Shown here: in pieces, positions 21,793-57,411 of the stretch | How the letters are laid out: each line of letters starts with the position of its first letter | Numbering within the stretch: the stretch's first letter is position 1 | Source: Gari tellinella | Taxonomy: Eukaryota > Mollusca > Bivalvia > Cardiida > Psammobiidae | Assembly: GCA_922989275.2 (NCBI GenBank) | Contig: OV277858.1 | Coordinates: 3,286,001 to 3,350,000, forward strand | Direction: 5' to 3' | Length of the DNA stretch: 64,000 nucleotides | Translations under genes and position numbers: made by a program | Notes under the pieces: generated by a model | Told to the model about the DNA's origin: nothing | Seen by the model: only the letters and a program-made list of their open reading frames with translations | The model's database searches: none

Positions 21793-21966
21793 ATACAAAA
21801 CGTGCACATACACGTAAACACTGCCAATTGAATGCACAGAACTACATACTACCAACTCACTGCCACCAGTTACAGTAAGAGTACACAATTGTATTTGATA
21901 ATTGCACTTGTTTTGGTATTCTTAATAACACTATTTCCTTTTTGGGAGGTAACTTGCACTTTTAAG

Positions 21967-22285: not shown

Positions 22286-22308
22286 CGAAACATATATGAT
22301 CTGTCATG

Positions 22309-24138: not shown

Positions 24139-24603
24139 CTGTAGCGCGTTCAAATACCTTATCGAAAAAAAAAACCAATTGTACGACATCTAACGTTCTC
24201 CAATACTCTCCAATAATAACTTATTGTACCCCCTTTTTATTTACTTTTCAAGGGTACGAACGATTTATGTACTTATCGGAATAAGACACGCAAAATGTAT
24301 TTATCAACTGAAATACATCAATTTTACCGTACATAAAATAAGATTTAGCTGCTTAGATGTAAGCTGCTTTGTTTAATACATTAAGTATCGGAAAATGTTG
24401 GTTTATTGAGGAGAAATTAACTCGGGACTGTTCGCTCTTTTTTGTAAACTCATTTGGTCGCCATTTTGTTTTCTTTGTTGGTATTGGTTAACTACCTCTG
24501 AGGCCGTTCGCGCCGTTCGCAATCGATATCGTGCAAACAGTCCGTTTTAGTTAAAGTGTTAAGTTTTCTGATGCAATCGATAAGGTAGCTGAACTCGCTA
24601 CAG
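24139..24603. mobile_element. 465-bp MITE-like element with CTGTAGCG terminal inverted repeats (block 1)
   Basis: The left end CTGTAGCGCGTTCA...TACCTTATCGA and right end TCGATAAGGTAGCTGAACTCGCTACAG are inverted copies of about 26 bp. The element interrupts the 30-bp minisatellite: the flanks GCCGTGT and ATAAACACTGTCAAC are both array sequence. No ORF is present. A truncated inverted relative is at 3,472-3,873. Because array units vary, a target duplication cannot be separated from the array. Confidence 0.8.
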
Positions 24604-24872
24604 ATAAACACTGTCAACTGATTACCGTGTCCGATACACAACCGTTTGACGTGTCTGATACACATTGTCAACTGACTGCGTGTATATTACACACTGTCAA
24701 CTGATGGCCATGTCCGATACACACTGTCAACTGACTGCCGTGTACAATGCACATTGTCAAACTGTGGCCTTGCTTCATAGACACTGTCACCTGATTGCCG
24801 TGCCTGATACACACTGTCAACTGATGGCCGTGACTGATAACTCTGTCATCTGATTGCCTTGCCCGATACACA
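24604..24872 (+). repeat. 30-bp minisatellite, third segment (block 1)
   Basis: About nine copies of the same unit. They end in a CCCGATACACAGAG partial unit followed by unique sequence. Confidence 0.88.
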
Positions 24873-26620
24873 GAGTTTCGAATCTGTAAATGTAACGTAG
24901 CAGTTTAACGGTACGATTTTGTGTATAACTATGTCCTCTATTAGTACAAAAAAGCATGTTTATATACCAATATCAGTATGGTAATACCACGTGACTTTGA
25001 CGTCATAAAAGCTACCATGTCAAGACGTATTTTGCCTCGATTGAACTTTTAAAAGAGCTGTTATTATTGTATTCGCCATGCAAATGTGACGAGACCCGGC
25101 CAATTAGAACGAGAAAGTAGTAAGCTTTGATCGTGTCCACCTTAATTGCGTATTAAATACGGTGTTTTTGCTAGATCGGTGGAAAACTGGCTTGAGAGCA
25201 CGCAAGACGAATGGCTACTGTGGTCAGCGAAACCAATTTCTCGGTAACATTCTAGGTTTGCGTATCTGTTCAGGTACAGTGCCAGCAGAATGAGCTGTTT
25301 AATGTAGAAAACATTGTATTGTATGCAACTGGTTCTGGAAAACGCAAAGCAAATCGGGAAAATCAGAGATATGTCAGAAAGCTTCGGGAAGGAAAATCGA
25401 TGGTCAAATTAACGAACGACTATGCCTTTTAAGATATTGATTTTGTCCCCTTAACTATCATTCAAATACTTAAGTAACTACCAAAAGATATTGGACAGAC
25501 ACATTTAGCTGGATACAAAGTTATACATATTATACGCAATGCCTATGTAACATATCTTTATCGAGTAAGCCACGCAAAATGCGGGGCCTGATCCTCTATT
25601 CAAACTGTTTTAAACTCGCAAAGCCCTACTGATTACATGGCGCATATTTTAGTTACCCAATGGGATTTATTGGACGATATACCACGATAAAACATCGATT
25701 GTTTCTGTTTCACCATGAAAGAGTTGATATGTCATCGATACTGACACATTGATGGGATGGAAATAATTCAAGATATGCCTCAATACGTCATTTCACATTA
25801 TATTTTTAAAGTCATATCACAACCGTAATATATCGCAAAATACATCCAGGTCAGATTGCTCTATTTTCACGATTATGGCCCTGTCACCCCTTACCGGATA
25901 GCGTAAACGGACGTCTAACGGAGAACAAAATTTGCCATCCGTTCTTCTCTGTTCGCATTCGTTTCTTGTCCGTTTCTTATTCGGTATATTCGCTCATTGT
26001 CCGGCCATGTCCGCTGATATCCGTTCCATCTGGTGGAAAGTTTTAAACATGTTGAACTCTTCGGAACGGATGCCACAGGACAAAAATGAACGCTAATTGT
26101 ACGGTAGTTATGTGTTTGCATACGTTTTGTTCGGAATGCATGCGTTCATTGTCCTGTATTTGTCCTGTACGTATTCGTTGAAAACCGGTGAACCGACGTG
26201 ACCATTGCCGGTGTTCCGGCAGCTAACCGCATGTTCAACGGACAATTCCTCGAAATGCATGAGCTATGTCCCTTGTTGAACTAGAAATATTATTTTTTTT
26301 GTTTTTCCGCTTTTTCATTACACATGCTTTCACATATCAAGCTGAAATTTTCTATATGATTCTGTCTATATGTCACGGGGTCAGGTCAGTTGCTATCTTC
26401 ATCACATCATTGATCATTAGGCAGCTCATCTCATTACTCCTTATTAGAAAGCCCATTAGAAAACTCATCCCATTTTATCTCATTTTATCTCATTTCATAG
26501 TATTTCATGGTTCCCACAAGTGGTTCCCATCATATCCCTGTTCATCCAATCGTTCGGCTTCATGCTACTAACCGGTTTATACTTACACGTACCTAATACT
26601 ATTTTTAGATAACGCATGCG
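24873..26620. other. Unrecognised duplicated sequence; CCGTT-rich stretch
   Basis: The stretch at 25,880-26,240 is rich in degenerate CGGACA, GTCCGTT, GTCCTGTA and CGTTC words on both strands and looks like an old small tandem or MITE, but no unit length is clear. A short ATTTTATCTC direct repeat lies at 26,471-26,490. No gene is supported. Confidence 0.35.
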
Positions 26621-26621
26621 C

Positions 26622-26914
26622 ACTTCACTTCTTCATACCCGTTTGTACTCACGCCAACGTTAGGTCGTTATAATTAAAGAATATTTATAGTGCTGCGCCT
26701 TGTGTTTTCAGGTATTTGAGTGTTATGTAGTTGGGTCTAAACCATTTATCTTCATTGTTTCATTCATACATTTATGTTTCATTTCATTTAGTTTTTAAAC
26801 TTCGTCTTTTTAGCCGAAGGCACTTCACTTCTATATACCCGTTTGTGCTCACGCCAACGTTAGGTCGTTATAATTAAAGAATATTTACAGTGCTGCGCCT
26901 TGTGTTTTCAGGCA
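26622..26914. repeat. 91-bp direct repeat, two copies about 200 bp apart (block 1 only)
   Basis: CACTTCACTTCT, ATACCCGTTTGT, CTCACGCCAACGTTAGGTCG, AATTAAAGAATATTTA and GTGCTGCGCCTTGTGTTTTC occur at 26,622-26,712 and again at 26,822-26,914. Block 2 lost this region in a 380-bp deletion. Confidence 0.75.
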
Positions 26915-27059
26915 TTCCAAACAACCCTACTCCCTTAAAGAAGAACCCCCGGTTAGTGCTAACATATTGCACTCCCGGTGACATTTTGGTGGCCAGTGTG
27001 ACTTCTAGGGCGAAGTTTTTTGGGACGAAAACCGCCATTTCTCGTTTGACACAGTGAAG

Positions 27060-27085
27060 TGACGTCACAGTAGTCTACAGCCAAT
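27060..27085 (+). promoter_or_regulatory. Promoter-like CRE plus CCAAT patch upstream of the gag-like ORF (block 1)
   Basis: A palindromic TGACGTCA (27,060-27,067) is followed 13 bp later by CCAAT (27,081-27,085) and a GC-rich GGGCGATGGGG. A TATAAA (27,429-27,434) and a TTTTGTTTTGCAG splice-acceptor-like site (ending about 27,780) lie downstream, before the ORF at 28,358. The patch is unchanged in block 2 (62,143-62,168). It could be the promoter of the retroelement. Binding is not shown. Confidence 0.4.
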
Positions 27086-27099
27086 GGGCGATGGGGTTT

Positions 27100-28357
27100 C
27101 CCGCACTCTTGTAAAGTGTCAACATTAGCCATGCCGTGTGAACCAACTTCGGCTTGACGTTTATTTCATCTGTTTACCCGGATTTCAAGTGTTCACGCAC
27201 AGGATTATACATTCCATTGTGGTAACAGTATCTTCAATATCTGTATTATACCGTTCTGCATTTGTCTACTTTGTGAATAACGAATTTAATAGCTACACTG
27301 ATAGTGACAAACTTTACTCTGTGTTTTCAACTTTTTTCATTGTTTTGGAACACTCTTTATTTGGAGCACAGATCATAATTTAATTTGTATACCCATTATT
27401 CTACAAGACCATCATCGTGACAACACCTATATAAACTGTAGCCTCTGGTGATTTCTAAAGACAATGTATATCCTCAGTAATTATCATCAGTGTAATTTGT
27501 AAATATTGTGAACTGGAAGTGATTGATGACTGAAGGATTGATTGATGTGTTGATGTGACTAACTTTCAGTGTATATATTATCATCGTCTTGTTAAAAAAA
27601 AAAAAAAGGTTTCACTATTTAGATCTAGTTTTCACTCAATTTATGATAAGTAGATCTATCTATTGAAAATATTATTCAGAATTATTAATCAGAATTATTA
27701 GATCATTCAATTTGTGAATGCATATTTGATGTTGTGAATTTTTGTGATTTGATTTTGAAATTGTAATTTTGTTTTGCAGATTGTTCGTACATGAAGTATG
27801 TTTGGCTATGGTTTGTGTGTACAAGGCCAGCAGTGTTGATCCTGCACTCACCTGACAGTCACCGCTAAACGAAGAAGGTTACACCTGCACTTGTTTGGTT
27901 TTGGTGAGCAAAATAAATATTACTAACCGTAACATCTCATTTCATTTGATCGTTCCTTCATTCGCCATGTCCATTAGTTAGATCCAATTATGGCCTGAGC
28001 AATTTCTTCAAAGAGGATTAGCAGCTGATCTGGTCCTGGGTCATTTTCTGTATTTCATTTAATTAAATATGTTTATTTAGCAGATACCTGTACTGTTCAA
28101 CTAAAGACAGAGAGTGTATTAGTTGGTTTTTGTTGTCTACTACTCTGTTATTACTGTTATTTTGCAATACAAACAGTTGTATATAACAGTTTAGTCTATC
28201 CATGAGTAAGTTAGTTTGTTTGATTGAGTTAAGTCATAGACAAGGTCAGAGGTCAGTAACACATTGTTTGTCTATCTGAAGCTTGTTACTGTCATTGGGT
28301 GTAGTGATAATTTCAGAATTGTCCGTTGTTATTGTTCTATACCAAGTATAGCTCAAT
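27100..28357. other. Putative leader of the gag-like ORF
   Basis: AT-rich sequence with an A-tract (about 27,593-27,608). No LTR boundary, primer-binding site or other ORF could be identified. It is closely matched in block 2. Confidence 0.35.
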
Positions 28358-28942
28358 ATGGCTGATAGTACACGTGATTTGTCGGATGTTCAGAACGAGG
28401 CTCTGAAGTTTTTTATTGACGAGGTAAGGCGGTCAGGTAAATTTCAGGTTATCCGTGTAACAGACATAAGCCCTGCCGTGCATTCAGCACCTATCCCACG
28501 TACACGTGATATACCAGTTGATATTACAAGGAATGTTCACTCCACCCATGTACATATACCTCCAAAAAGACCCCCTTTGCCCAACTTTGATAACACTTCC
28601 TTTATGAACCCATATTTGGATAGATCAGTACTTGTAAACAGTGTTAGAGTGCCCAAGTTGCCAGAATTCTCAGGGGAGAGCTCTGGTAATGACTTTGATA
28701 TTTGGTTATATGATGTTAACTGCCTTATTAAAAGTAGCTCCTATTCAAATCAAGCCATATTAAAGTCTATTAGGAAAAGCTTGAAAGGAAGGGTCAGAAC
28801 TGTGTTACTGCACCTTGGAGAGTATGCCTCTATAGGAGAGATCGTCGAGCAGCTTGAAGGCCTGTATGGCAATGTGGCGTCAAGTGAGAAGCTGAAAGAG
28901 AAGTTTTACTCAGCATATCAGGATGTTTGTTGTGACAACTGA
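28358..28942 (+). CDS. Gag/PNMA-like ORF, truncated at its C-terminus (block 1)
   Basis: The product has 194 residues. Residues 99-106 (PKLPEFSG), a tryptophan at 116, helix-like 134-153 (ILKSIRKSLKGR...), 166-179 (LEGLYGNVASSEKL) and FYSAYQ at 183-188 follow the order seen in capsid N-terminal domains of Ty3/gypsy gag and the domesticated PNMA proteins. The start ATG follows CTCAAT and is shared with block 2. The ORF stops six residues after FYSAYQ, where the capsid would normally continue, so a junction near 28,925 probably cut it. Compared with block 2 I count seven amino-acid changes and four silent changes, which does not suggest strong constraint. Confidence 0.55.
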   Translation: MADSTRDLSDVQNEALKFFIDEVRRSGKFQVIRVTDISPAVHSAPIPRTRDIPVDITRNVHSTHVHIPPKRPPLPNFDNTSFMNPYLDRSVLVNSVRVPKLPEFSGESSGNDFDIWLYDVNCLIKSSSYSNQAILKSIRKSLKGRVRTVLLHLGEYASIGEIVEQLEGLYGNVASSEKLKEKFYSAYQDVCCDN

Positions 28943-38870: not shown

Positions 38871-39129
38871 TTAGTAAAATAAAACTCGGCGATGGTATTC
38901 CAATCGTCTGCGATTCTGGATTTTTTATTTTATGAATTTGAGGCATTTGACGCAATTGTTGCATAGGGCCTCTGATAATTGCTGGCACCAGACCAGGGCA
39001 AGTGAACTTGGTCACAGTCTATAACCACTCAGCAAGGGAGCCCCCAACTGAAATCGGAATACAACACGGCACCGACGACTCTGCCCTGGCCATGGGTACC
39101 AAGGGACATGATTCAGCAGTTACTATGAA

Positions 39130-40070
39130 ATAAGTGCCCAAAGCACATAAGCAACACCCCTTTAATACAAAATGCATGTTTACCTTCCAAATAAAATATA
39201 AACAGTGGTCTACATAATGCTTTAAAAAAAGGATTGGTCTCCCTAAGAGTGGTATTATACTTATATATATACACAATTGTCTACTTAATCCTTGTGTCAT
39301 ACTTTTAGGCGACTGTTGCCTTGACCTCTGACCTCAGTTGCCCAAAGCACATAAGCAACACCTCTTTAGTATAAAATTAATGCATCTTTCAAATAAAAAT
39401 ATAAACAGTGGTCTACATAATGCTTTATAAAAAGGACTGGTCTCCCTAAGAGTGGTATTATACTTATATATATATACAATGGTCTACTTAATCCTTATTT
39501 CGTACTTATAGGTGACTGTGGCCTTGACCTTTGACCTCAATTGCCCAAAGCACATAAGCAACATCCCTTTAGTATAAAATTGATGCATATTTACCTTGCA
39601 AATAGAAATATACACAGTGGTCTACATAATGCTTTAAAAAAAGGACTGGTCTCCCTACGAGTGGTTTTATACTAATATATATATACACAATGGTCTACTT
39701 AATCCTTGTCATACTTTTAGGCGACTGTGGCCTTGACCTTTGACCTCAATTGCCCAAAGCACATAAGCAACACCCCTTTAGTATAAAACTAATGCATCTT
39801 CCAAATAAAAATATGTACAGTGGTCTACTTAATGCTTTATAATCCTTATTTCGTACTTTTAGGCGACTGTGGCCTTGACCTTTGACCTCAATTGCCCACA
39901 GCACATAAGCAACATCCCTTTAGTATAAAATTGATGCATATTTACCTTCCAAATAAAAATATATACAGTGGTCTACATAATGCTGTAAAAAAAGGACTGG
40001 TCTCCCTAAGAGTGGTATTATACTTATATATATATACAACGGTCTACTTAATCCTTATTTCGTACTAACA
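39130..40070 (+). repeat. 205-bp tandem repeat containing TA runs, five units
   Basis: CCCAAAGCACATAAGCAAC recurs at 39,136, 39,341, 39,543, 39,753 and (one change) 39,895. Spacings are 205, 202, 210 and 142 bp, so one unit has a deletion of about 60 bp. Each unit has CAGTGGTCTACATAATGC, AAGGACTGGTCTCCCTAAG, an ATATATATA run and GGTCTACTTAATCCTT. It also carries CCTTGACCTTTGACC, linking it to the neighbouring 140-bp repeat. Confidence 0.88.
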
Positions 40071-40267
40071 AAATATTAAGGAGACCAAAATCTTTATATA
40101 TTTTTTGTTTAAAGAAATATGGGTTAAAGGACTTTAGAATCATATAATAGACATTAGGTGTCTAAGAAAAGTGATTCTAAATGATGATAAGTCGAACAAT
40201 ATAGGATATACAAAATGTCTCCCTAAGGAGGAAAAAAAAGGATGGTCTCCCTACGGAGGAAAATAGT

Positions 40268-40298
<31 letters not shown>

Positions 40299-40396
40299 GG
40301 AAAATGTAAAATATTACGGCAAATGCCGGACCAGCAAAAGTATATATAATTGTAAAGGTAAAAATGACGAAACACGCCTTCTATTTTTTCTTTTGT

Positions 40397-40440
40397 ATTA
40401 TCATACGCTTTTCGCCTCTCGGCTCATCAGTGATTGTAAT
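40397..40440 (-). ncRNA. Mirror hammerhead motif HHR1' on the minus strand of the left palindrome arm
   Basis: This is the inverted copy of HHR1. CTGATGA lies at 40,430-40,424 on the minus strand, with the same stem II and GAAA. It differs where stem III would form: the base after GAAA is A instead of C (40,409), leaving an A-G mismatch, while stem I improves (TCA with TGA, no wobble). It is probably weaker than HHR1 as a single unit but could act as a dimer. Both strands of this palindrome thus encode a hammerhead core. Confidence 0.55.
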
Positions 40441-40442
40441 AT

Positions 40443-40486
40443 ATTACAATCACTGATGAGCCGAGAGGCGAAACGCGTATGGTAAT
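40443..40486 (+). ncRNA. Candidate type I hammerhead ribozyme HHR1
   Basis: The core is CTGATGA (40,453-40,459); stem II is GCC, loop GAGA, GGC (40,460-40,469); then GAAA (40,470-40,473). A two-pair stem III (A-C with G-T, loop GC) leads to the cleavage triplet GTA (40,477-40,479), giving predicted cleavage between 40,479 and 40,480. Stem I pairs 40,450-40,452 (TCA) with 40,480-40,482 (TGG, one wobble) and, beyond a CAA bulge, 40,443-40,446 (ATTA) with 40,483-40,486 (TAAT). All invariant core bases are present. A very short stem III is usual for Penelope-like minimal hammerheads. Activity is not shown. Confidence 0.7.
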
Positions 40487-40517
40487 ACAAAAGAAAAAAT
40501 AGAAGGCGTGTTTAGTC

Positions 40518-40557
<40 letters not shown>

Positions 40558-40671
40558 GGAAATGCAAAGGTCCGACAAAAGTCGGTCCGGTACAAGTTTA
40601 GATATATATCGAATTAAAAAAAGAGAAAGATTATGCCTTTGTTTAAACAATATTTAATAAAAACATTACGC

Positions 40672-40719
40672 TCCTCTACTAAACTAGTTTCGCCTTTCGG
40701 CTCCTCAGTAGTCAATGGA
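40672..40719 (-). ncRNA. Candidate type I hammerhead ribozyme HHR2
   Basis: On the minus strand the core is CTGAGGA (40,708-40,702), stem II is GCC, loop GAAA, GGC (40,701-40,692), then GAAA (40,691-40,688). Stem III is A-C with G-T around loop TA. The triplet is GTT (40,684-40,682), with predicted cleavage between 40,682 and 40,681. Stem I pairs ACTA (40,712-40,709) with TAGT (40,681-40,678) and, past an ATTG/AGA internal loop, TCC (40,719-40,717) with GGA (40,674-40,672). Position 7 is G, which the consensus allows. Pairing is better than in HHR1. Confidence 0.7.
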
Positions 40720-40799
40720 AATAACGTCATTTAAACAAAGGCATAATCTTTCTCTTTTTTTAATTCGATATATATATATATATATATATATTTAAAAAA

Positions 40800-41440
40800 A
40801 AAGGTCTTGATATAAAGCCGTGACACTTATCTTTCGGTTGTAATAATACCAGGATTTTTCTTGAAGCGAAAAAAGTAATGATGACCTACAAAGGCTGCTG
40901 GCTAATGAAATGACTAGACTCGCGTAAGAAAAGAATTCCGTTCGTATAAAACTTAAGCAAACTTCTTAACTTCTAAAAATGTGTTCATGCATTGTTACAA
41001 TGTTCTACATGGAGGAAATATTTCCTTGGAGGCAAAAAATCCATTTTGTATGTAAAGAGACATTTAAAAGGAGTGCGCGTCAAACGGCCAAAATCAAACG
41101 GCCAAAGTTGTAACTGTATTATTATGTCGTATGTGATCATTATTATTATTGAAAGGAAAATTAGAATTATTAACATATTACTTCAAAAAAGGGAATTTAG
41201 GGTTAGTTTTACATCCAGACTAAAATATACATATTATCCGTCCCATTTCTATGAAAGAGGTAACAGCTTGCATTATCTTCAGAAATTAATTGCAAACATG
41301 ATAACATGAGATATCCGTTTCTTTCTGCTTTACTTATGTATTATATAACGGAGTAAATTATAAAGCAGTCAATGCCTTAAGCAATCTATTTTAGTGACTG
41401 CTTAACCTTTTGCCTGCTGATCGCGCCTTTACTTTTTTGT
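40800..41440. other. No gene supported
   Basis: AT-rich sequence. A short direct repeat CAAACGGCCAAA occurs twice near 41,072-41,100. The ORFs on both strands here are chance length. Confidence 0.35.
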
Positions 41441-41508
41441 TGCAAACAACTTGGATCAAGGTCGGATGCCGCGTAACACGGCGTCTGATCTGGATCCAGA
41501 ATGTTTGA
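41441..41508. repeat. Palindromic element, GCAAACAG family, member 7
   Basis: TGCAAACAACTTGGATCAAG at the left, ATCTGGATCCAGAATGTTTGACA at the right and GGATGCCGCGTAACACGGCG at the centre make it the most GC-rich core of the family here. Confidence 0.65.
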
Positions 41509-42297
41509 CACTCGTCTTTAGCTTTATTTACTTACAAAATGTACAAATCTAAATTTTAAAAAAAATGCAGCCGACAATTTCGAGCGATAAAAACAAAAGT
41601 GTAAAAAAACTTGCTTCTTTACTTAATACACATCAATCAATTAAATTAAGATAATAGACGTTTATTTAAGAATAAAATCATCAAGTAAATGTGGTTTAAA
41701 TAATAAACTAGGTCTATTCATCTGTAAACTACATGTCTACCATATTACACATCACAAAGGAATGTGACACATTACGTAACCGTACACAATTAGCAGGAGA
41801 TTTATAAGCGTCATGAAACTCTCCCAGCATGAAGTCCATGCTTCTTGAAAATTAGAGCCGTAAATAGGCGTATTTATTGGGTTAAAGGGTTAATCTAATG
41901 TACTTATTTATTTATTTGTTTTAAAACCTCAAATAAAAAAATATTTAGCGGACGTAGTGGATGATTGACTTATTGATTGGTCAGTGTATGTATATTATTT
42001 TGTCTTAACCTGCTTGCTTGCTTGCATGATTATTGACCTACAAGCAGTAAATCATTTAGTGATTGACTGCTTAATGGATTGATTGAACTGACTGATTTAC
42101 AAGGTACATGTTTTCATAACGAGACTATGGAACTATGGTCAGATTTTATTCATTACCACAATAACCTCGTAATTAATTGATTAATTGATCGATCGGTTGA
42201 TTGAGGGGCTGATTAACGGTTGATTTATTATTATTATTATTGTTGTGCCTGGTTGGCTGTTCGGTCTGTAGACTGACTGGTTGAGTGAATGACTGTT

Positions 42298-44702: not shown

Positions 44703-45963
44703 TATCATAATATTATACCAGATTTATATAGCGCTCTTTTAACACAGGGGTAGTGCATTCAAAGGCTCTTCACATGAGATTACACAAATGTATCTACAAA
44801 GCAAGAAAAGACAAAGTAACTACAATAACATCTACAATAAACATGAATAAACATATAAAAGACAGCCCCCAAAATGGCAATCACATAACTCCCATCAATC
44901 AGCAATGAAGTGACCAGCTTCTGATTGTCGACCGATAGAAACAATAGTAGAGCGCTCAAATGCAGGCCGCCAGGAAAAGACAAATGACTACAATTAGATC
45001 TAAAATAAACATGAATAAACATAAAAAGAAACTCCCCAAAATCACGTTACCCCATCAATCAATTAGCAATGCAGGTAAAGGCTTCTTAATGCCGACTGAT
45101 AGAAATAACAGTAGAGCGCCCAATGAAGGCCACTAAACATACAAAAGACAGCCCACAAAACGGCGATTGCATTACCTCATCAATATATTAGAGCAACGAA
45201 GGAAATGGCTTCCTTATGCCGACTGATATAAACAATAGCAGAACGCCCAATGCAGGCCACCCAATGTAACATAACTAGGAAAAATAGCATGCGACAATAA
45301 CTAAATATTTCTATAAGAGACAAAAACAAAACCAGATAATACAACAGAACTCCCATTTGGACCAACAACATCTAGAGCAAGAACATATTGCATAGGTAGC
45401 AGTGTTCCAATAACAAATATTAAAGAAATGTGTTTCCAGACGCTTTTTGAAAACTGCAACTGAGTTCGCATCTCTAATATCTGATGGTAGCCTGTTCCAG
45501 AGCTTTGGGGCTGCATGCATGAAACTTCTATCTCCAAACCTCACCAAACGACTCCTCGGTACAACCAGCGATACTGATTTAGTCGCAGACCGCAGCTCTC
45601 TTCGAAGTTTATACACGTCAAGCATATTGACAATGTACCTTGGAGAATCATTGCACATGGCTTTGTATGTGAGTGTCAGAATTTTGAATTCAATTCTGTG
45701 TTGAACTGGAAGCCAGTGAAGATCCTTTAAAACTGGAGTGATGTGATTGTACCGTGGGGTCCTGGTAATAATGCGGGCTGCTGTATTTTGCACACGCTGT
45801 AGTTTGCATAGTAAGCTTTGGGGAATCCCATACAGCAGTGAGTTGCAATAATCAATTTGTGAAGTGACCAGATAATTGGTCAAGGTCTTTGAAGCTTCTG
45901 GAGAAAGGTACTGTATTATATGACCTATCTGCCGCAGCTGTGAGTAGCCAGACCTGCACACAG
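44703..45963 (-). mobile_element. CR1/L2-type LINE, 3' fragment on the minus strand (block 2)
   Basis: It reads leftwards: truncated coding region to about 45,440, then a 3' UTR with three imperfect direct repeats (AGAGCGCTCAAATGC, AGAGCGCCCAATGAAGG, AGAACGCCCAATGCAGG near 44,950, 45,115 and 45,240), then GAGCGCTATATAAATCTGG and TATAATATTATGA. It is the same family as the plus-strand LINE at 51,074-53,418, in opposite orientation and more diverged. Its 5' end is at about 45,963. Confidence 0.85.
45311..45963 (-). pseudogene. LINE ORF C-terminal domain, read-through to 45,311 (block 2)
   Basis: About 185 residues of the LINE C-terminus are open: YSQLRQIGHI, QIDYCNSLLYG, LHWLPVQHRIEFKILTLTYK, APKLWNRLPSDIR and KRLETHFFN. 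The normal stop after the FFNIYY-type end is lost, so the frame runs on to 45,311. All RT catalytic motifs are missing through 5' truncation. Apparent ORFs on the opposite strand are shadows. Confidence 0.85.
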
Positions 45964-46616
45964 CGTTACCTGTATACACAGTATATTTTAGATTGTGTGA
46001 CCACTGGTCAGTTAACAAAGTAAACATGTATTTTTTGCACGTGTAATTGAATTGTCAGTGTGTCTTAATTTGCCAAACTGCATAGATGGGAATATGTTTG
46101 GAGCTTGGAATGATTCACCTTGCCTGAGATAGCAGATACTGTGAGTTTAAACCCTATCCCGTCCATGTCCCGTAGTGCAATGTAGAGTAGTATAATTGCT
46201 TTCGCGTGGAATACTGTTTGCAATTAATGCTTTATAGAATAGAGACCTTAGTCAGGCCTTCCTGTCTGTGTGTGTGGCTTTGGCTTTTATGTGGAGTAGA
46301 GTACGGCCCTGACCAGTTATCAAATATCGCCAACATCCCTGTCCCTTTAACCAAAATGCTGAATATCTACATGTAATTTTCGCCATGTGACTTGTCTACG
46401 AGCCGTTGGAATTTGTACAGTCGGGTTGTATTAAGCTGAAGGCAGTTTCTTATAGTAAGGGTTTAAGAGTTTAAAAGTGTTCCATATAATTATTATAGCA
46501 CTTGCTTTGACATTATTTTAAACATATATATTCTGTTTCTATTTTAATCCTATTTTATATTGTGTGTTTGGGCTTTTGTGTAATTAGCCTATATAACCAA
46601 AATGGAGGTACGCTAG
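45964..46616. other. Block 2 copy of the unrecognised sequence at 246-899
   Basis: It aligns throughout with 246-899 with about 1-2% substitutions by eye. No gene is seen. Confidence 0.5.
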
Positions 46617-46663
46617 TATGCATAAGGCTAGTTTGTTTTGTAGGCTTAATAGCCTTATGCATA
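46617..46663. repeat. 47-bp remnant of the 10-kb element (block 2)
   Basis: TATGCATAAGGCTA, a 19-base spacer identical to the left terminal repeat of the block 1 element, then TAGCCTTATGCATA. The site could be an internal-deletion or imprecise-excision product, or the state before expansion. Confidence 0.7.
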
Positions 46664-46775
46664 TTTCCAGAATAGAATTTGTTTAAAATTGGTTAGATCT
46701 ACATATGGATATACAGATAGATTTTATTTGAATGTTGAATTGAGTTAGTTGATGATGTGGCTTTACTATAAACAG

Positions 46776-47076
46776 TCGTGAAGTATGTGTGGCTAAGTGG
46801 CTAGAAAGTTTACCATCCTGTGTGGAACACACATTTTCCTGTTTGCCTTTAGAGCGTAATATCCTGTGTGGAACTGACACTACCTAAGTGGCTATATTAT
46901 ATATTTTCGTCCTGTGTGGACTCAACATTGTCTACGTGGCTATAAACTGTGGTATTATTATGTGTGGAAAAGACTTGCCTGTGTGGCTATAAGCTGTTAT
47001 AGTATCCTGTGTGGATTAACGTTAGCCTGTATGGCTTAGTGACATAGTAGCAACTAAGTTATATCTGTGTGGTCTT
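46776..47076. repeat. Degenerate CCTGTGTGG phrase repeat (block 2)
   Basis: The copy of 11,085-11,385 with one or two substitutions (for example GTATGG to GTGTGG near 47,070). Confidence 0.5.
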
Positions 47077-47469
47077 TAGTGTGACATTTATTGTGCAATA
47101 TATGTCAATTATAGCGGTAGAAATAGAAACAAAAATTGTCAGTAGTTCAACCAATTCTAGTTTGCTATTATGAAATTTTTCAAAGAATTCCGGAAATCAC
47201 TTTTTACTATATCTGACTTATTGGGACTCGTCCGGCATTCGTTTCTATGTTATTTGTAAATGGTTATTCAGTAAAGTTTACTTTAACATAGCTGCATACT
47301 GGAAAAGATTACTTCTGACCTATTAATACAAAATGAAGAGATATGTATAATTGAGGAGAGAAATGGGTTAAACCGAAAGAGCTTGATTAGAGTTTGTGCG
47401 AGAGTAGTGTGTTAAATATGAACATAGAGAAGCAAACAGGATACACAAGGAACAAAATATTGAGGATAG

Positions 47470-47814
47470 ATAAGTTGAGAGAGAACTTAGGAAAATGGAG
47501 CTTGCGAAAGAAACACGAGAGAAAGAGGTTGCGAAATAAACACGAGATAATGAGATAGTATTAGAGATGGAGAAGTTGAAATCGCATGCGTCTCCGAGTG
47601 GCCCAAGTAAAACGCCAGGTGTGAAAGCTAAATTGCCAATGTGCCTGCATTTAACAACAAACAAGATAATATGGATACATATTTTAATGCGTTTGAACAT
47701 TTTGCAGAAACTGCTTTTTGAGCAAATTCTGATTGGACTAAAAACTTAAGTGCTTTATTACAGTGTAAGGCACTTGACGTTTATTCTAGGCTATCACTGA
47801 CCAGCAACGGATAG
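47470..47814 (+). pseudogene. Ty3/gypsy-like gag remnant (block 2)
   Basis: It has the same segments as the block 1 remnant (ELRKMELAKETRE, PGVKAKLP, NMDTYFNAFEHFAE or equivalent, ALDVYSRLSLT). It carries an extra 30-bp tandem duplication (AAACACGAGA words at about 47,511 and 47,540) that introduces a TAA at 47,537. The KLP frameshift and the terminal TAG (47,812-47,814) are shared with block 1. Confidence 0.6.
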
Positions 47815-49726
47815 TAATAAACAGATTAAAACAGTCGGTTGCTATAAATTTTGGACAACAGGTTCTTTCAATATTGCTTAAAGTTCATAACTTAACTGTG
47901 ATAACATAATTCATGCCACTCTATGCCAGTACCATTATGTATCAGGACCACAATGGAACTAAGGTATTTGCCTTTTTTTGTGTTATCCTTGGTGTATGGT
48001 ATGACTGTCATGGTCCATTATTTCATTCATGTACTATTTATCTTTTTTACAATGTTTGTAATAATGTCTTAACATGTATTGTTACATTTTATGCTGAAAT
48101 ACATTTGTCTATTTATCTATCTAGTATTGTACAAACTTCCTTTTAAAAAGAATGCTAATTTGCTGTACAAATAACATATGGCTGCAACGGTAACGTTAAA
48201 CAGAAAAATCCTAAAGGAGCATTTTTTTACGTTCACTGTTCTTTAAGCATTCAACAGCCTAAATACCTGATAGTTGTCACATTTTAGTGGTCGTTATAGA
48301 GATATGTTATATTGTTTTATTGTTATAGTGTTTTGCCAATCGATTTATACCGGTGAGCAGAAACGTTTTTCCTTTTAATGTAGCGAGTTGAAATCTGAGT
48401 GATAAACAGTTTGTATGCTAAACAGACGGCCGTCAGTTTTGGCTCTAATCGAATTGCAATGTCATCTTCCCTAGAGTAAGTTCAGTACACGGCTATGTGA
48501 TCACTTAATAGAATAGGGTCTCAGATAAATGAACTTGCTAGATGCAGAATGCTTTTATTATTTGTATCGAGCGTTGTGCAACAACCACCAATTTAGTGAT
48601 TTCTAGGCTAGAATAATTCATGGTATCCTTGTTACTAAAAAGTGTACTGTGGTTTGAATGCAAAAGTAACAATACTGTATAAATAAGAGTTACTTACTGT
48701 TCTGTTTGTGAGTATCTGTCTATAAAATACACAGCAATACACAATATACACAGCGTCACGCCCTTATAGTTCATTGTGCCGATTTCTATTTGTTTTTATT
48801 CAAAGTCAGTCTATTAACAGCGAAGATTGCATGTATTATGCTGGCGTCAATAATAATGCTAAAACGAACATGATGAGGATAAGATAACGGCATGTATTAT
48901 GAGACAGCTGAAACAATCGTCTTAGATATGCTACAGAAAGTCCTACTCACGTAGTTCAAATCTAAGTCATTCTGCTGAAATATTGGTAAGGTTGCTATCA
49001 CACAGTCAATGTTACGGTTTACTATACTGCCTGAAGTGAACAACATACGCGTAGCTGATGTACTATTCATAAATCTGCATAATGACATTTTGTTAACAGC
49101 TTAATATGAATCACCTTCTGCAACCAATGTTCACAATGCGCAGGGATCCTTTTAAAATACCATCACGAATTCTCTCATTATATGACACACACACACACAC
49201 ACTTGTTTCTTGTGGGGAGTCACTACACATAATAATTACCCTGAAAGTCACTTAACTACTTTCGTCTTGACCCTCGAGTACAATTTTCATATATTTGGAA
49301 ACAAAAATGTCATACTAATCGCACTATCGGTTGTTTTTCTTGAAAACTCAGAAAATAAAGGACTAGTATTTTGTCATATAACACACTTGTGTGTATTGGT
49401 GGTTTTAGCATCCCAAATTAATGTAAAAACATGCACCAACGGGAAAGTCAAACCACTTGATATTTTTTCCTTTTTTATGATAAGATATAGCAAAACAATG
49501 GATTTGCAATAATTGTCCTACCCACTACATGCTGAGATATAGTGAGTTTTCGAAATGTGGTGGGTTCAACGGTGTATTAACAATACCGTGTAGTGGGTTA
49601 ACAAAACAAACCAACCTACACACATAAACATTTGTTCACACAAACACACAAAGGATGTTTACTAATATAGAATATAGAATATATTCGACTTAGAAGAAAG
49701 TAAGTCAAAACGAACACGACATTACA
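47815..49726. other. Unrecognised sequence, block 2 copy of 12,110-14,050
   Basis: High-identity match with small indels, including the (CA)n run at 49,183-49,202. No gene is supported. Confidence 0.4.
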
Positions 49727-50083
49727 GTGGAGAAACCTGATTGGTTTAAAAAATATATGGTCTACTATTCGTTTATAACGAGTACACTGTTTTTAAATTG
49801 GACCATTTCAGAACACACATTTATCGAAATAGCTCATCACTACAAATATGTAACATACCACTTGTACAAAAACGGTCAGTGTTTATACGAAACTGATTTG
49901 AATCCAAACCAACAAGTAAGGTGGAGTTTGTCTACCTGGTGTGTTTCACATATTCACTATAAAACCGCAATATTTATTAAAATAGACCAGCAAGTCTACT
50001 GCAATATCACGTTGAACACTTCGGTTCTCGTCCTATCACCGGAATTAAGAAACGTGGAGCCGGGTCAGTACTTGAATCGGTGA
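49727..50083 (+). CDS. Hypothetical 118-residue ORF (block 2)
   Basis: The counterpart of 14,058-14,384, with ten more N-terminal residues because the upstream A/T run is one base shorter. It is unrecognised. Three amino-acid changes against block 1 within the shared part are visible (R to S, N to T, V to G). Confidence 0.25.
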   Translation: MEKPDWFKKYMVYYSFITSTLFLNWTISEHTFIEIAHHYKYVTYHLYKNGQCLYETDLNPNQQVRWSLSTWCVSHIHYKTAIFIKIDQQVYCNITLNTSVLVLSPELRNVEPGQYLNR

Positions 50084-50686
50084 CCGCCTGTGAATACATG
50101 GTTCCTCTTTTTTTTCCTATTTGTCTGTTTTTCGGTTTTTGTTTTGGTGTTTTTTAAATATTTTTTGTTTTTGCAGTTTGTACAGAACTTGACAGTGCTG
50201 ACCAGTTTCCGTAGTCAGTATCTTGGCGTCCCATATGGATCCAAACTATATAAACGTCAATGATATGGTATTGTTGCTTAACCAATCAATCCATGATTAC
50301 TTGTACACTCGTCATTTTCCGTATTCGTTCTATGTGTACGGTTTGTATTAGACATGCGTACCTACGTTCTTTGTAAAATGTGTTAAACTGGAAATATATT
50401 TTTTAAAAGCAGTTAAAATAGACAGAAAGATAGGAACAATGTCAACGGTATCAGGCGGTCTAAGGCGAACACAAATCAAAATACTAACCGGCATCGAGGT
50501 TGCTTAACTTCAGAACTGCATTCATCTTACGTAATGGAACTCAGAACTCTGAACGAAAATCGGGACGAATTCGGAAACAGGACTTAGTTCGGCTTACATA
50601 AAAGCACTCAGGACTGTTACCGGAACTCGAAACTAATACGGAAACAGAACAGATTTCCGTTATGCATTGCAGAGCCTTCTCATCAT
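50084..50686. other. No gene; block 2 copy of 14,390-14,986
   Basis: Near-identical to the block 1 stretch. No feature beyond loose GGAACTC words. Confidence 0.35.
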
Positions 50687-51073
50687 GTTTGCCATTGTTT
50701 AGGAACATTCCCAGTGTGATTCCGATGGTTTATGAACGTGCCACTGGTTTCTTAGATGGTTCAAGAACATTTCGATGACGTTTCAGATGGTTCGGAAACA
50801 TGCCGATGGCGTTTGCGATGGTTAATGAACGTTTCAATGACGTTTACGGCTATTTAGGAATGTTCCGATGACGTTTCCGATGGTTCAAAAACGGTTTCAG
50901 TGTTTTTCAGATGGTTAAGCGTATCAGATGGTTTAGGAATGATCAAAGGGTTCAGGAACGTTCCCATGATGTTTTCGATGATTCATGAACGTTCCTATTG
51001 TGTCTAAGATGGTTCAGAAACGTTCCGATGGCGTTTGAGATGGTTCAAGAACTCTTCGCTGGAATCTGCGTAT
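50687..51073 (+). repeat. 31-bp minisatellite, left segment (block 2)
   Basis: The same degenerate unit as at 14,987. The junction with the LINE lacks 27 bp present in block 1 (bases about 15,376-15,402), a deletion spanning the array/LINE boundary. Confidence 0.85.
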
Positions 51074-52459
51074 GTCAGACCTCTTTTGAAGAAACCTGAT
51101 CTCGATACAAATGATCTTAAGAACTACAGGCCTATATCAAATTTGCCATTTCTCTGCAAAGTATTAGAAAAAGTTGTAGACAGACGCATTGAGTCTCATT
51201 TGGCCACAAACAATCTGTATGAACAGCATCAGTCAGCATATCGTAAGCATCACTCTACAGAAACTGCTCTTGTTTAAGTTTAAAATGACATATTGCAATA
51301 TCTTGATAAGAATGAAATCACAATTCTGGTGATGCTTTACCTATCAGCCGCATTCGACACAATTGATTATGAAAAATTACTCAATCGCCTTGAAAAAGAC
51401 TTCAAAATCATTGGAAACCTACTAAAGTGGATGACCTCATACCTGAATTACCGTTACCAAACAGTCGCGGTAGATGGGGAATTATCTGCCCCAGTTCAAA
51501 TGAAATATAGTGTGCCACAGGGTTCAGTCTTTGGACCCAAAAACTACATCTTGTACACATAACCTGTCGGCTCAATTTGCAGAAATCATGATCTGGATCA
51601 TCATTTCTATGCAGATGATTCACAGTTATACTTGTCATTTAAGAATCAAGACACATCTAGTCAACAAGAAACCCTTTCAAAAGTCGAAGGGTGTCTAAAA
51701 GACATAATCTCATGGATGCACCAGATTATGTTGAAGCTGAACACTGACAAAACTGAGGTCATACTGTTTCACTCAAAGAAGGTTAACGTTCCTGGAGATT
51801 TTCATGTTCTAGTGGGAAACTCTAAAATCAAACCGTCATTATGTGTGAACAACCTTGGTGCGAAATTTGATTCCCAAATGGATATGACACAGCACATTAA
51901 CTCTGCGTGCAGGTCTAGCTACGCACAGCTGCGGCAAATAGGTCACATAAGACAGTACCTTTCTCCAGAAGCTACAAAGACTTTGGTCAATTCTCTGGTC
52001 ACTTCAAAAATTGACTACTGCAACTCACTGCTGTATGGGATTACCAAACACTCACTTCGAAAACTACAGCGTGTGCAAAATACAGCAGCCCGCATCATTA
52101 CCAGGACTCCTCGGTACAATCACATCACTCCAGTTTTGAAGGAGCTTCACTGGCTTCCAGTTCAACACAGAGTTGAATTCAACATTCTGACACTCACATA
52201 CAAAGTCATGTGCAATGATTCTCCAAGCTACATTGTTAGTATGTTGGACGTCTATAGACCTCGAAGAGAGTTGCGGTCTGCGAGTAAATCAGTATCGCTG
52301 GTTGTTCCGAGATGTCGTTCAGTGAAGTTTGGAGATAGAAGTTTCATGCATGCAGCCCCAAAGCTCTGGAACTCTCTACCATCAGACATCAGAGATGCGA
52401 GCTCAGTTGCAGTCTTCAAAAAACGTCTGAAAACACACTTCTTTAATATTTATTATTAG
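51074..52459 (+). pseudogene. LINE reverse transcriptase remnant (block 2)
   Basis: The same frame and motifs as block 1, with FYADD at 51,605-51,619 and the motif A aspartate replaced by tyrosine (LYLSAAFD). It keeps the shared TAA codons after ETALV and after NYILYT but lacks the TAG of block 1, so the last 275 codons (51,632-52,459) are open to the natural stop. It is still inactive. Confidence 0.9.
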
Positions 52460-53418
52460 AACACACCAGGAAATGGATGACTACTACCTCCGGGCTATGT
52501 TCTTGCTGTAGATATTGTGGGTCTAAATGGGAGTTCTGGAATTGTACCGTTTGCCAGTGCCTGTTGATGGATCTTGATGGTAGGGATTGCCCCTGATCTC
52601 TTTAAAACCGACTGGCTTGGGGCTTGCGGTATAATTCAGGGACAGCTTCTTATCTTGATGTTTTATAAAGTAAGGGTGTAATTTCAGCCATGGAACATGT
52701 AGGTCCTGCGGGTGTGGGGTGGAGAAGGTATATGACTGCTACACTAGGGCTGTGTTCATTCTGTATATGTTATGGGTCTAATTTTTAGTTCTGGGGTTGT
52801 ACCGTTGACAAATGCATGTCTGGTGGATCTTTGATGGTAGGAATACATCTCTGATCTCTTTTGAAACCAGCTGGCGGGGTCTGTGGTATAATTCTTGGAC
52901 AGCTTTTGCCATTTTTAATAATGGTATTGATCTTCTATAGAGTTTTTAGTTATGGTCGCATGCTAGTTTTCCTAGTTATGTTACATTAGATGGCCTGCAT
53001 TGGGCGCTCTGCTATTATTTCTATTGGTCGGCAATCTTTAGCCGGTTTGTTCATTGCTGATTGATGGGGGTAGTGTGATAGCCATTTGGGGGCTGTCTTT
53101 TGTATGTTTATTCATGTTTGTTTTAGATCTAATTATAGTTATTTGTGTTTTGTCGATGCCTGCTTTTGGCGCTCTACCATTATTCATATCAGTCGGCAAT
53201 ACTTAGTCGGTCGGTTCATTGCTGATTGATGGGGGTAATGTGATCGCCGTTTTGGGGGACTGTCATTGTTTATTTCAGATCTAATTGTAGTTATTTTGTC
53301 TTTTCTAGATTTGTAGGTACATATATGTTATTTCATGTAAAGCGCTTTTGAACGCACAATCCCTGTGTGAAAAGGGCGCTATATAAATCTGATATAATAT
53401 TAATGATAATAATAATAA
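51074..53418 (+). mobile_element. 5'-truncated CR1/L2-type LINE in the 31-bp array (block 2)
   Basis: The same insertion as at 15,382-17,747, including the 3' UTR repeats, the GCGCTATATAAATCTGATAT end and a TAA-rich tail with one TGA variant. The shared insertion site shows that it is older than the block duplication. Confidence 0.85.
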
Positions 53419-56400
53419 TGGTCCAGGAACATTCAAATTGTATTTCAGATGGTTCAGAAACGTTCCCATGGTGGTTCAGGTATTTCAAAAAATGGCGTTT
53501 CAGATGTTTCAGGAACGTTTCCAGGGGTTTTAGATAGTTAAAGAACGTTTCGATGACATTTCATATTGTTCATGAACGTGCATATAGTTTATTTAATAGT
53601 ACAGGAACGTTTTGATTCCATTTCAAATAATATTTTCGATGGTTCAGGAACGTTCCGATAGGGATTCAGATGGCTTAAGAACGTTTCAAATGTGTTTCAA
53701 ATGGTTAATAACAGTCTCATGATGTTTCAAATGGTTCAGAAACGTTCCAATGGTGTTTTCGATGGTTAATGAACGTTTCAAGGGCGTTTCCGACTATTTA
53801 GGAACGTAACGATGGTGTTTAAAAATGTCAGGAATGTTCCGACGGCGTTTCGAATGGTTCAGGAGTGCTCTAAGAGTGTTTCCGATGGTTCAGGAAGGTT
53901 CTCATAATATTTTTGATGATTCATGAACGTTCCCATTGTGTCTAAGATGGTTCAGAAACGTTTAGATGACGTTTGAGATGGTTAAAGAACGTTCGCAGGA
54001 TGTTTCAAATGGTTTTGGCACTTTTCAGCGTCTTTCTGGTGGTAAATGAATATTTCGATGCCTTTTTAAGTGGTTCAGGAAAGTTCCGATTGCGTTCTGA
54101 GATGGCTCAAGCATGTTCCAATGGTGTCTCAGATGGTTACGATTCGCTCCAATTGCGTTGCGGATGGTTCATGAACGTTCTGATGGCGTTTAAGATGGTT
54201 CAGAAATGTTTCCAGGGCGTTGTCGAAGATTAACGAACATTTCAAGAGTTTTCCGATGGTGCATGAACGTTCTGATGGCGTTTCAGATGGTTCAGAAATG
54301 TTTTCAGTGTGTTGTCGATGATTCGCGAACGTTTTAAGGTTTTTTTCCAGGAATTTCTGATGACGCTTCAGATGGTCCAGAATCTTTCAGATGTATTTCA
54401 GATGGTTCAGAAAAGTTTCCATGGTGTTTCTGTTGGTTCATGAACGTTCCAATCGTGTTTCAGGTGTTTCAGATATGCCATCGGCTTGTTTCTGATGGTT
54501 CAGAAACATTCCCGGGTGTTTCCGATGGTTCAAAAACGTTCCAATGGCGTTGCAGATGGTTCAGAAACGTTCTCAGTGTGTTTTTGACTGTTCATGCATG
54601 TTCGTAGTGTATTTCCGAAATTTCAAGAACGTTCAAATAGTTTTGAGGGGTGCAGGTAGTTTCAGGTAGTTCAGAAATGGCGTTTCAGAAACGATCCGAT
54701 GGTGTTTCATAGGGTTCTATAACTATCAGATGCCGTTTCAAATGGTAAAGGAACGTTAAGACGGCGTTTCAGATGGTTCAGGAACGTTCTGAGGTTGTTT
54801 CAATTTGTTCAGAAACGTTCTAAGGTTGTTTCCAATGGTTCATTAACATTACCAGGTAGTTTTTTATTGTTCATAGACGTTCATAGGTTTTTGCGATGGT
54901 TCAGGAACGTTCCGATGGCATTTCAGATGGTTCGAGGTCGTTTCCAGGGTGTTTCTGATGGTGCAGGTATATTTCGATGGCGTTTCGGATGGTTCAGAAA
55001 CGATCTAAGGGTGTTTTCAATGGTATTTCAGATTGTTCAGGAAGTTTCGATGACGTTTCAGATTGTTCATAAACGTTCATAAAGTGTACCATTTTGTTCT
55101 AAACGGTTTTAATGGCATTTCAGATGTTTCAGGAATGTTTCGATGACGTTTCAGATTGTTCATAAACGTTCATAAAGTGTACCCTTTTGTTCTAAACGGT
55201 TTCAATGGCATTTCAGATGGTTCAGAAACGTTTCGATGGTGTTTCAGAGGGTTCCGGAACGTTCCAGTTGTTTTTCAGATGGTTACAAAACGTTTTCAGG
55301 ATATTTCCGATGGTTCAGAAACGTGCCGATGGCGTTTCAAAGGGTGAAAGAACGTTTTCAGGGTATTTCCAATGGTGCACGGACGTTCCCATGAAGTTTA
55401 CGATTGTTCATGAACGTTCGCATAGTATTTTAGATGGACCAGGAACGTTCTAATGTTGTTTTCGATGGCTCAGTATTGTTCCGATGGCGTTTCAGATGGT
55501 TCAAAAACGTTTCCATGATGTTTCCGATGGCTCATGATCGTTTCCAGGCAGCTTCCGATTGTTCATGAACGTTCGCATGGTGTTTCGGATGGTTCAGGAA
55601 CGTTCCAAGGTTATTTTGATGGTTCAGTAATGTTCCGATGACGTTTCAGATGGTTCTGAAAATTATTTCTAGGGTGTTTCCATTGTTCAGGAACGTTCAT
55701 AAAGTGGCTTTTAGGATGGTTCCAATTGTGTTTCAAGTGGCATTTCAGATGGTTCAGGAATGTTTTGATGATCTTTTAGATGGTTCAGGAACGTTTCAAA
55801 GGCTTTCAGATGGTTCAAGAACGTTCCAGTTGTGTTTCAGATGGTTCAAAAACATTATCAGTGTGTTTCAAAGTGTTCGTGAAAGTTCATAGGGTGTTGC
55901 CGATGTTTCTGAAACCTTCCAATTGTGTTTCAAATGTTTAAAAATATACCAATGGCGTTTCACATGGTTCAGGAATGGCTTTACAGATGGCGTTTCCGAT
56001 AGTCCAGGAAAGTTCCTAGAGTTTTTTTATTGTTTATGAAATACCAAGCGTGTTTCCGATGGTTAAGGAACATTTCGACGTCATTTAAGATTGTTCAGGA
56101 AAGTTCCGATGGTGTTGCAGAGTGTTCAGGAATGTTTCGACGGCGTTTCAGATGATTTATGAACGTTTAACAATGGCATTTCAAATAGATCAGGTACGTT
56201 CTTAAGGTATTTTGTGTGGGTTTAGATGGTTCGAGAATTTTCCGATGACGTTTCAGATGGTACAGGAATGTTTCGATGGCTTTCAGATGGTTTAGTAACG
56301 TTCAAATGGTGTTTCAGATTGTTCAGAAACGTGCTCAATATGTTCAGATGGTTCAGAAACAATCCGATGGTGTCTCACAGGTTTTTCGATGATTCAGAAT

Positions 56401-57237
56401 TAATTACGATGGCGTTTAAAATGGTTCAGGAATGTTCCTGTGGTGTTTAATATGGTTCACGAACTCTCCCCCTATGTTTCCGATGGTTTAGAAACGGTTT
56501 TCAGTGTGTTTCAGATGGTTCAGGAACGTACCGATGGATTTTCAGATGGTTCAGGATCGTTTAATGGTGTTTATGATAGTTCAGAATCGTATTCAATGTG
56601 TTTCCGATAGTTTATAAACGTTCAGATTATGTTTCAGATGGTTCAGGAACGATTAGGTTTGTTTTCAATTGTTCAGAATAGTGCCAATGACGTTTCGGTT
56701 GTTCGAGAAGCTCACAAGTTATTTCCGATTTTTCAAGAACGTTTCGATAGTATTTTAGATGGTTCAGGGACGTTCTAGTGGTGTTTCAGATGGTTCAAGA
56801 AAGATCCAATGGTGTTTCAGACGGTTTGGGAATGTTCCAAGGGTGTTTCGGATGGTTCAAGTACGATGGTGTTTGTTGTGGCTCAGAAACATTCCCATGG
56901 TGTTTCCGATCGATCAGAAACGTTCCGATAGCGTTCAGATATATATTTTAAGAACGTTTAAATGTTTTTTAGATAGTTCAGAAACGTTCTCATGGTGCTA
57001 AAGATGTTTCATAAACTTTCCTATGGCGTTTCTGATGGTTCAAGAACGATAAACAATGGTGTTTCCGACGGTTCAAGAACGTTTAAATGGCGTATCAGGG
57101 TTCAGGGACATTTCCATGGTGTTTTTGATGGTTGTGAAAACATTTCCAGGGTTTTCCAGATGGCTAAAATACGTCCCATGGTGTTTCAGAAGATTTAGAA
57201 ACGTTCCAAGGGTGTTTTCAATAGTTCGGGGAGGATC
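53419..57237 (+). repeat. 31-bp minisatellite, main array (block 2)
   Basis: Unit-by-unit match to 17,748-21,792 with three array-length differences: an extra 93 bp (3 units) near 55,090-55,185, absence of the 281-bp (9-unit) duplication of block 1, and loss of about one unit near 56,695. Confidence 0.92.
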
Positions 57238-57411
57238 ATACAAAACGTGCACATACACGTTAACACTGCCAATTGAATGCACAGAACCACATACTACCAA
57301 CTCACTGCCACCAGTCATAGTAAGAGTACACAATTGTATTTGATAATTGCACTTGTTTTGGTATTCTTAATAACACTATTTCCTTTTTGGGAGGTAACTT
57401 GCACTTTTAAG

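Follow-up and report, generated by a model that had tools for sequence, protein, structure and literature searches.

At positions 40371–40512 of the window (the whole stretch of 64,000 nucleotides analyzed here) lies a palindrome with a hammerhead ribozyme core on each strand, which raises the question of how two such cores came to be joined head to head and whether their doubling serves a function. The first-pass annotation described near-perfect inverted arms of 71 bases, and this description holds: positions 40371–40441 and 40442–40512 form inverted 71-nt arms with 2 mismatches and zero spacer, which a repeat finder lengthens to 101 nt at 89% identity. The palindrome is real and of a known kind of origin, and the window copy is a slightly decayed example. 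The features of the locus are given below, the positions within the elements being numbered from the first base of the hammerhead core.

40268–40295, no strand: (TA)14 tract, left edge of the family A insertion and its putative target
40291–40445, minus strand: left copy, 5'-truncated 3' end of family A, +139 to −15, tailed (BLAST to the long copy L023, 95.5%)
40400–40434, minus strand: hammerhead A minus, a core match that fails the descriptor; stem I AUCA/UGAU perfect, non-palindromic hexamer AAGCGU
40438–40445, no strand: junction, self-complementary AATATATT, 8-nt microhomology common to the left and right copies, centre 40441/40442
40438–40542, plus strand: right copy of family A, −15 to +89, tailless (BLAST to L023)
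40449–40483, plus strand: hammerhead A plus, a descriptor match; stem I AUCA/UGGU, stem II GCC-GAGA-GGC, stem III formed by the palindromic hexamer ACGCGU
40521–40554, no strand: (TA)17 tract separating the A and B insertions
40548–40723, minus strand: main copy of the sister family B, with a tailed 3' end (97.2% in BLAST against the B copy at L015)
40678–40712, minus strand: hammerhead B, a descriptor match; stem I ACUA/UAGU, stem II GCC-GAAA-GGC, palindromic hexamer ACUAGU
40730–40775, plus strand: inverted tailless arm of B (+61 to +106), the head-to-head partner of the main B copy, with no hammerhead core (BLAST)

The surrounding window contains a large duplication (1–934 and 10956–28923 versus 45718–64000, in blocks of 92–99% identity), each half of which has one 5S rRNA-like match (14305–14404 and 50004–50103; 45.1 bits, gathering threshold 38). 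The hammerhead region sits in the unduplicated middle.

Hammerhead motifs and the predicted hairpin

The first-pass annotation had placed a hammerhead core with a GTA triplet on each strand, and the core CTGATGAGCCGAGAGGCGAAA is indeed found in both family A arms (40453–40473 on the plus strand and 40410–40430 on the minus strand). A third hammerhead core lies at 40688–40708 on the minus strand; these three core matches of the window, all within 300 bases, compare with a mean of 0.03 in shuffled windows. The plus-strand A motif and the third core (B, minus strand) satisfy a strict descriptor composed of a 4-bp stem I, CUGANGA, stem II, GAAA, the pair 15.2-16.2 and NUH, which had 0 matches in 200 simulated windows built from base-to-base frequencies. 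The plus-strand match implies a cut between GUA and U at 40479/40480, the very position predicted beforehand, and hammerhead B, with the triplet GUU, implies a cut between GUU and U at 40682/40681. In the minus-strand A motif, with an implied cut at 40404/40403, stem I is perfect and the descriptor fails at the stem III pair 15.2-16.2 (A15.2.G16.2), which is the single mismatch already noticed in the first reading. The stem I and stem III sequences differ between hammerheads A and B, yet pairing is kept in both, which, of all the sequence evidence here, speaks most strongly for the importance of the fold. Small variants of the hammerhead of Penelope-like elements (PLEs), which Luense et al. 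reportedly described in 2017 as cleaving as dimers, resemble those of the window in their short palindromic stem III (here ACGCGU and ACUAGU).

A covariance-model search, on which the hammerhead reading had been staked in advance, gave a divided answer: the Rfam hammerhead models produced no match at E ≤ 10 in 39000–42000, nor any that reached gathering across the entire window, whereas the descriptor, which is fitted to minimal hammerheads, was matched. According to PMC6155905, the PLE hammerhead is mostly of this minimal kind. The hammerhead pattern was also searched in viral contigs, with no match.

For a transcript of 40341–40542, a single long hairpin of −130.3 kcal/mol is predicted, which lends plausibility to the earlier suggestion that a transcript of the palindrome would fold on itself in rivalry with the ribozyme fold. 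Within the palindrome, the ribozyme of each strand can pair with its own mirror arm, and a read-through transcript would probably be a long double-stranded hairpin that masks the ribozyme.

The parent element and the frequency of head-to-head copies

Judged by sequence comparison, the palindrome arms are the 3' ends of a multicopy two-ORF PLE, termed family A, with a reverse transcriptase (RT) and GIY-YIG protein. The arms match the last ~105–155 nt of this element, whose hammerhead is close to that 3' end; the copies in the window are non-coding and are assigned to the PLE by this 3' end. The very short stem III and the kinship to PLEs that were proposed from the letters of the window are both borne out. 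The right 71-nt arm occurs with 100% identity at at least 40 places, the window counted (best 40 of 267 candidates in the 1.6-Gb genome). The longest copy, L023, contains ORF1 (382 aa), for which no Pfam match was found, and ORF2 (762 aa), which includes PF00078 (RVT_1) and PF01541 (GIY-YIG), both over the Pfam cut-offs; an open 762-aa ORF2 is also present in L012. The L023 ORF2 has at least 3587 homologues at E ≤ 1e-3 (8000 candidates scored), and those with names include Saccostrea cucullata as well as proteins catalogued under Candidatus Thiodiazotropha and the Solemya velum symbiont, both of which live in bivalves, so that the host is likely to be a bivalve. The PLE protein had no match in a PDB sequence search, and no relatives were confirmed when it was searched in genome contigs and viral contigs.

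We read 38 family A insertion sites (L009–L043 and the window), which were collected with a query covering −11 to +59 and under-sample shorter copies. They have a common 3' end and variable 5' truncation. In tailless copies the 3' end falls near +89 and mostly borders on (TA)n; in tailed copies a tail of ~50 nt carries it to +139. Most of the arms read are 95–100% identical to L023, and by this measure family A is recent. The 5' leader occurs at at least nine places (best 40 of 155 candidates), two of which, L058 and L059, are relatives with 83 and 82% identity; L023 begins within the leader. At five of the nine (L053–L057), an upstream copy with its hammerhead and tail runs on into the leader; these are head-to-tail tandems of a ~3.7-kb coding unit, and every junction read has a hammerhead. 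Family A thus combines the features by which PLEs are recognized, namely an RT and GIY-YIG protein (ORF2 of L023), pseudo-LTRs from tandem copies (five head-to-tail junctions), and an optional 3' tail together with inverted copies (+89/+139 ends; 14/38 sites head-to-head). A retrozyme, i.e., short non-coding tandem repeats of 150–450 bp, was rejected as a candidate, since the family A copies read are single, inverted or ~3.7-kb coding tandems.

The copy L037/L052 (also L047; C2:46308276–46312070) is complete, and its 5' end at +25 to +27, after a TA flank, lies within 2 nt of the predicted cut at +26/+27; the sequence of this one copy would be indirect evidence of hammerhead cutting in vivo. 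The cut as the usual 5' end of copies was rejected, as it fits 1 of 52 ends in the 38-site set (L037). Twelve of these 52 inner ends (hand count) lie between −14 and −21, immediately 5' of stem I, where the sequence is AAATATATT. This hot spot could result either from TA microhomology with the target or from an RNA 5' end at this place; the former is the simpler explanation, and the latter would account for the common stopping point of the two arms in some pairs. TACATACATAC flanks L023 on either side (by eye), and most insertions sit in TA runs that hide target-site duplications; since no unoccupied target site was seen, the insertion target is deduced from the TA flanks. The flanks of L014, L026, L038 and L072 have in part a recurring GCAAAAGTGCAGACAATCCGGCCATACCGACC-like sequence, which ends in TA beside the insertions and is possibly the tail of another family.

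Head-to-head pairs occupy 14 of the 38 family A sites (L010b, L012, L019, L022, L024, L027–L033, L043 and the window). The remainder comprises one complete copy, L037, and 23 single copies (14 tailless and 9 tailed), among which L039 and L041 were scored on only ~630 and 250 bases of 5' flank, and some of which may be pairs, because a tailless arm that is very short could be overlooked when embedded in a TA run. The first-pass annotation had recommended a search for whether single or inverted copies prevail; at the sites sampled here, 23/38 are single and 14/38 head-to-head. The zero-spacer palindrome of the window is also found on C16, C12 and C11 (L060–L062), with other flanks (best 40 of 230 candidates), and six more family A palindromes with other joints are centred or near-centred (L063–L068). 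Family B forms centred palindromes too (17 fetched; best 40 of 356 candidates); all these loci (L060–L068 and L069–L085) were picked by palindrome match and are uninformative on palindrome frequency. For PLEs, head-to-head inverted pseudo-LTRs with palindromic junctions, optionally with a tail at one of them, are described in PMC3846280. Among the titles and abstracts searched, no literature on palindromic hammerhead pairs was found. The initial impression that opposed fused copies are unusual does not stand, given the 14 of 38 sampled sites, the three loci with the same joint and this precedent; the head-to-head arrangement is ordinary for these elements.

The hammerhead core is present in both arms of only 7 of the 14 pairs (hand count), and the doubling of the ribozyme therefore looks incidental. 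A functional double-strand ribozyme locus, at which both transcripts self-cleave under selection, could account for the cores on both strands and for the hexamer being unmutated in both arms of L060–L062 (by eye); we regard it as very unlikely in view of these 7 pairs, of the minus-strand motif of the window, which is broken at stem III, and of the predicted hairpin of the read-through transcript. On the sequences at hand, no function of the paired ribozymes need be assumed. A miniature inverted-repeat DNA transposon or a microRNA precursor would share the long inverted-repeat shape, and two Rfam microRNA models, MIR5512 (72.3 bits, gathering threshold 139) and mir-2238 (30.6 bits, threshold 52.2), matched at the palindrome. 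Both matches are below gathering and were taken to reflect the hairpin shape only; moreover, outer ends are variable, single and tandem copies exist, and long copies code for the RT and GIY-YIG protein. The DNA-transposon reading was dropped once the genome copies were read, and an origin of either sort is next to impossible.

Outer ends, joints and the origin of the pairs

We consider it quite probable that two 5'-truncated family A fragments, inserted head to head into (TA)n, make up the palindrome, which is adjoined by a family B insertion. The B pair of the window is spanned by a 49-nt inverted repeat (40599–40647/40730–40778). Families A and B are neighbours within or close to a shared TA tract in the window and at L011, L015, L016, L020, L060 and L064, which suggests that either family may use TA runs introduced by the other as targets.

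The outer ends of the pairs follow a rule: among 43 head-to-head pairs read, 40 were scorable, and in 39 of these one arm is tailed and ends ~50 nt farther out, whereas the other is tailless. In family A (23 pairs, 14 from the 38-site set and 9 palindrome-selected), all 22 scorable pairs are unlike-ended, the unscored one being L027, in which the inverted piece stops internally. In family B (20 pairs, the 17 fetched plus L011, L016 and the window), 17 of 18 scorable pairs are unlike; L073 is the sole like-ended pair, with both arms tailed, and in L070 and L085 no 3' end was identifiable on one side. The tally was entered by hand, with the partial tails of L032 (8 nt) and L063 (to +122) scored as tailed. 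The pairs are partly non-independent, as four share one A joint and L070, L073, L074 and L077 share one B filler joint; when the four AATATATT loci are counted once, unlike ends are still found in 19 of 19 family A pairs. If the two ends were independent, at most half of the pairs would be unlike, and at one half, with pairs taken as independent, P is 2e-7 for 22/22 and 2e-6 for 19/19.

The arms of several pairs also appear to share one source. Nine minority variants are common to both arms, versus 1.7 on shuffling of the pairs (none of 10,000 shuffles reached nine), in a test of the 13 pairs with at least 60 overlapping positions among the 16 contiguous pairs scripted; the nine come from 5 of the 13 pairs and include two (L063, beside the joint) that look like alignment artefacts. 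Both arms of L066–L068 carry letters of the tandem copies L055–L057, the arms of L028, and likewise those of L027, share letters absent from all others of 49 arms, and a private change of L061 is present in both arms. Arm-to-arm differences in L019 (three neighbouring positions) and L012 (two) do not speak for one source. The arms of the window have no private variant in common: among the 49 arms compared, the left copy has 5 private substitutions and the right one none in its 71-nt arm, and the right copy has a 14-nt deletion close to its 3' end (by eye, versus other copies).

These findings bear on the proposal that an inverted duplication arises when the end of one cDNA folds back and primes a copy of the same strand. 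Such self-priming on an antisense template has been put forward for bdelloid PLEs on the grounds that palindromes abound at their inverted junctions (PMC3846280). It would give rise to variants shared by both arms, as seen in several pairs, and to centred palindromes with nearly equal inner ends, as in L065–L068. However, a snap-back copy cannot change its own outer end, so both arms should share it, and simple self-priming is hard to reconcile with the 39 unlike pairs; in addition, many inner ends are very unequal (e.g., −3173/−150 and −966/−178). The unlike outer ends argue against simple self-priming, which we hold to be distinctly unlikely, and favour two reverse transcriptions from the two known PLE start sites.

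Microhomology at the junctions averages 2.6 nt (0 to 8) versus 0.72 at random (P 5e-5); it was scored at 12 of the 14 pairs, and the mean is over the nine exactly resolved, including the 8 nt of the window, which are the longest and weigh heavily. L043 has 3 extra bases at its joint, and several B joints contain a short filler resembling nearby sequence, which plain annealing does not explain. Filler of this sort is a feature of microhomology-driven end joining, and the B joints may have been formed in this way.

Another explanation is that the ~250-nt palindrome moves as a non-autonomous unit of its own, which the PLE machinery copies in full, as would be indicated by the single zero-spacer junction that the window, L060, L061 and L062 share in different flanks, and by the filler-bearing B junction common to L070, L073, L077 and, ~5 Mb away, L074. 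Most pairs, however, have a junction of their own, the private change in both arms of L061 would need a second hit or gene conversion, and recurrence is expected of AATATATT, a natural self-complementary joining point; a mobile palindrome is thus unlikely, if slightly less so than self-priming. L070, L073 and L077 (C2:34180540–34181850) form a local array of B palindromes joined by TA runs at a spacing of 364–370 bp.

We therefore return to two reverse transcriptions as the preferred origin. The protein of the element would cut both strands of AT-rich DNA, and each cut strand would be extended by one reverse transcription, one from +139 (tailed) and the other from +89 (tailless), with both cDNAs copied from RNA of one origin; their 3' ends would then meet and join at microhomology. 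In the window, both cDNAs would have stopped just 5' of the hammerhead and paired via AATATATT, leaving the zero-spacer palindrome. The ribozyme would be the element's own tool for RNA cutting, and its doubling a by-product of insertion. This scheme agrees with a published in vitro study of a PLE protein, in which both strands were cleaved and extended and synthesis began at two sites delimiting the tail (PMC11167929). The start site was no different between strands in vitro, so the one-of-each rule is not predicted by that study (PMC11167929); the one-of-each use of the two start sites is what we infer in addition. As a tentative and rather doubtful refinement, the two reactions may be coordinated, with one dimer using RNA from a single source, the outer site on one strand and the inner on the other, always one each, and with short palindromes arising when both cDNAs run off an RNA 5' end at the 5' edge of the hammerhead.

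Comparison with known elements and implications

As described in PMC3846280, the Pen families of Adineta vaga resemble the present elements in their RT and GIY-YIG protein, partial tandems and head-to-head inverted terminal repeats, as well as in having palindromes where the inverted copies meet and, optionally, a tail on one of the repeats. Here, unlike in the Pen families as described there, a hammerhead is possible in each arm (the word 'hammerhead' is absent from the main text of that paper), ORF1 exists besides the RT ORF, and unlike ends are found in nearly all scorable pairs.

Poseidon PAc of Anolis carolinensis (PMC11167929) likewise has a hammerhead in the pseudo-LTR, two RT start sites delimiting the tail and AT-rich targets, and both target strands are cut and extended, there in vitro. 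Its ORF starts at hammerhead stem II, whereas here the hammerhead is 3' of ORF2 and, in tandems, upstream of the short ORF1 leader. No reads of Poseidon PAc start or end at the presumed cut (PMC11167929), in contrast to L037/L052, which starts there within 2 nt.

PMC7229834 and PMC6155905 describe animal retrozymes and newt-type dimeric hammerheads that share type I, a very weak helix III and a palindromic tetraloop with the present motifs, and that are poorly active alone and efficient as a dimer; amphibian hammerheads with a weak helix III and palindromic tetraloop cleave efficiently as dimers (PMC7229834). Retrozymes, as portrayed in these sources, are short head-to-tail tandem repeats without an ORF, whereas the copies here are inverted or single fragments of a coding element.

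With the rule of unlike ends, the shared source of arms in several pairs and the microhomology joints, two rival mechanisms can be told apart by counting, and a specific in vitro test suggests itself. These observations bear on the way in which Penelope-like elements integrate and on why inverted copies are so common among them, a question for which families A, which is recent, and B leave many readable junctions. In addition, the palindromes would be natural sources of hairpins matching a young element, and may matter for its small-RNA silencing.
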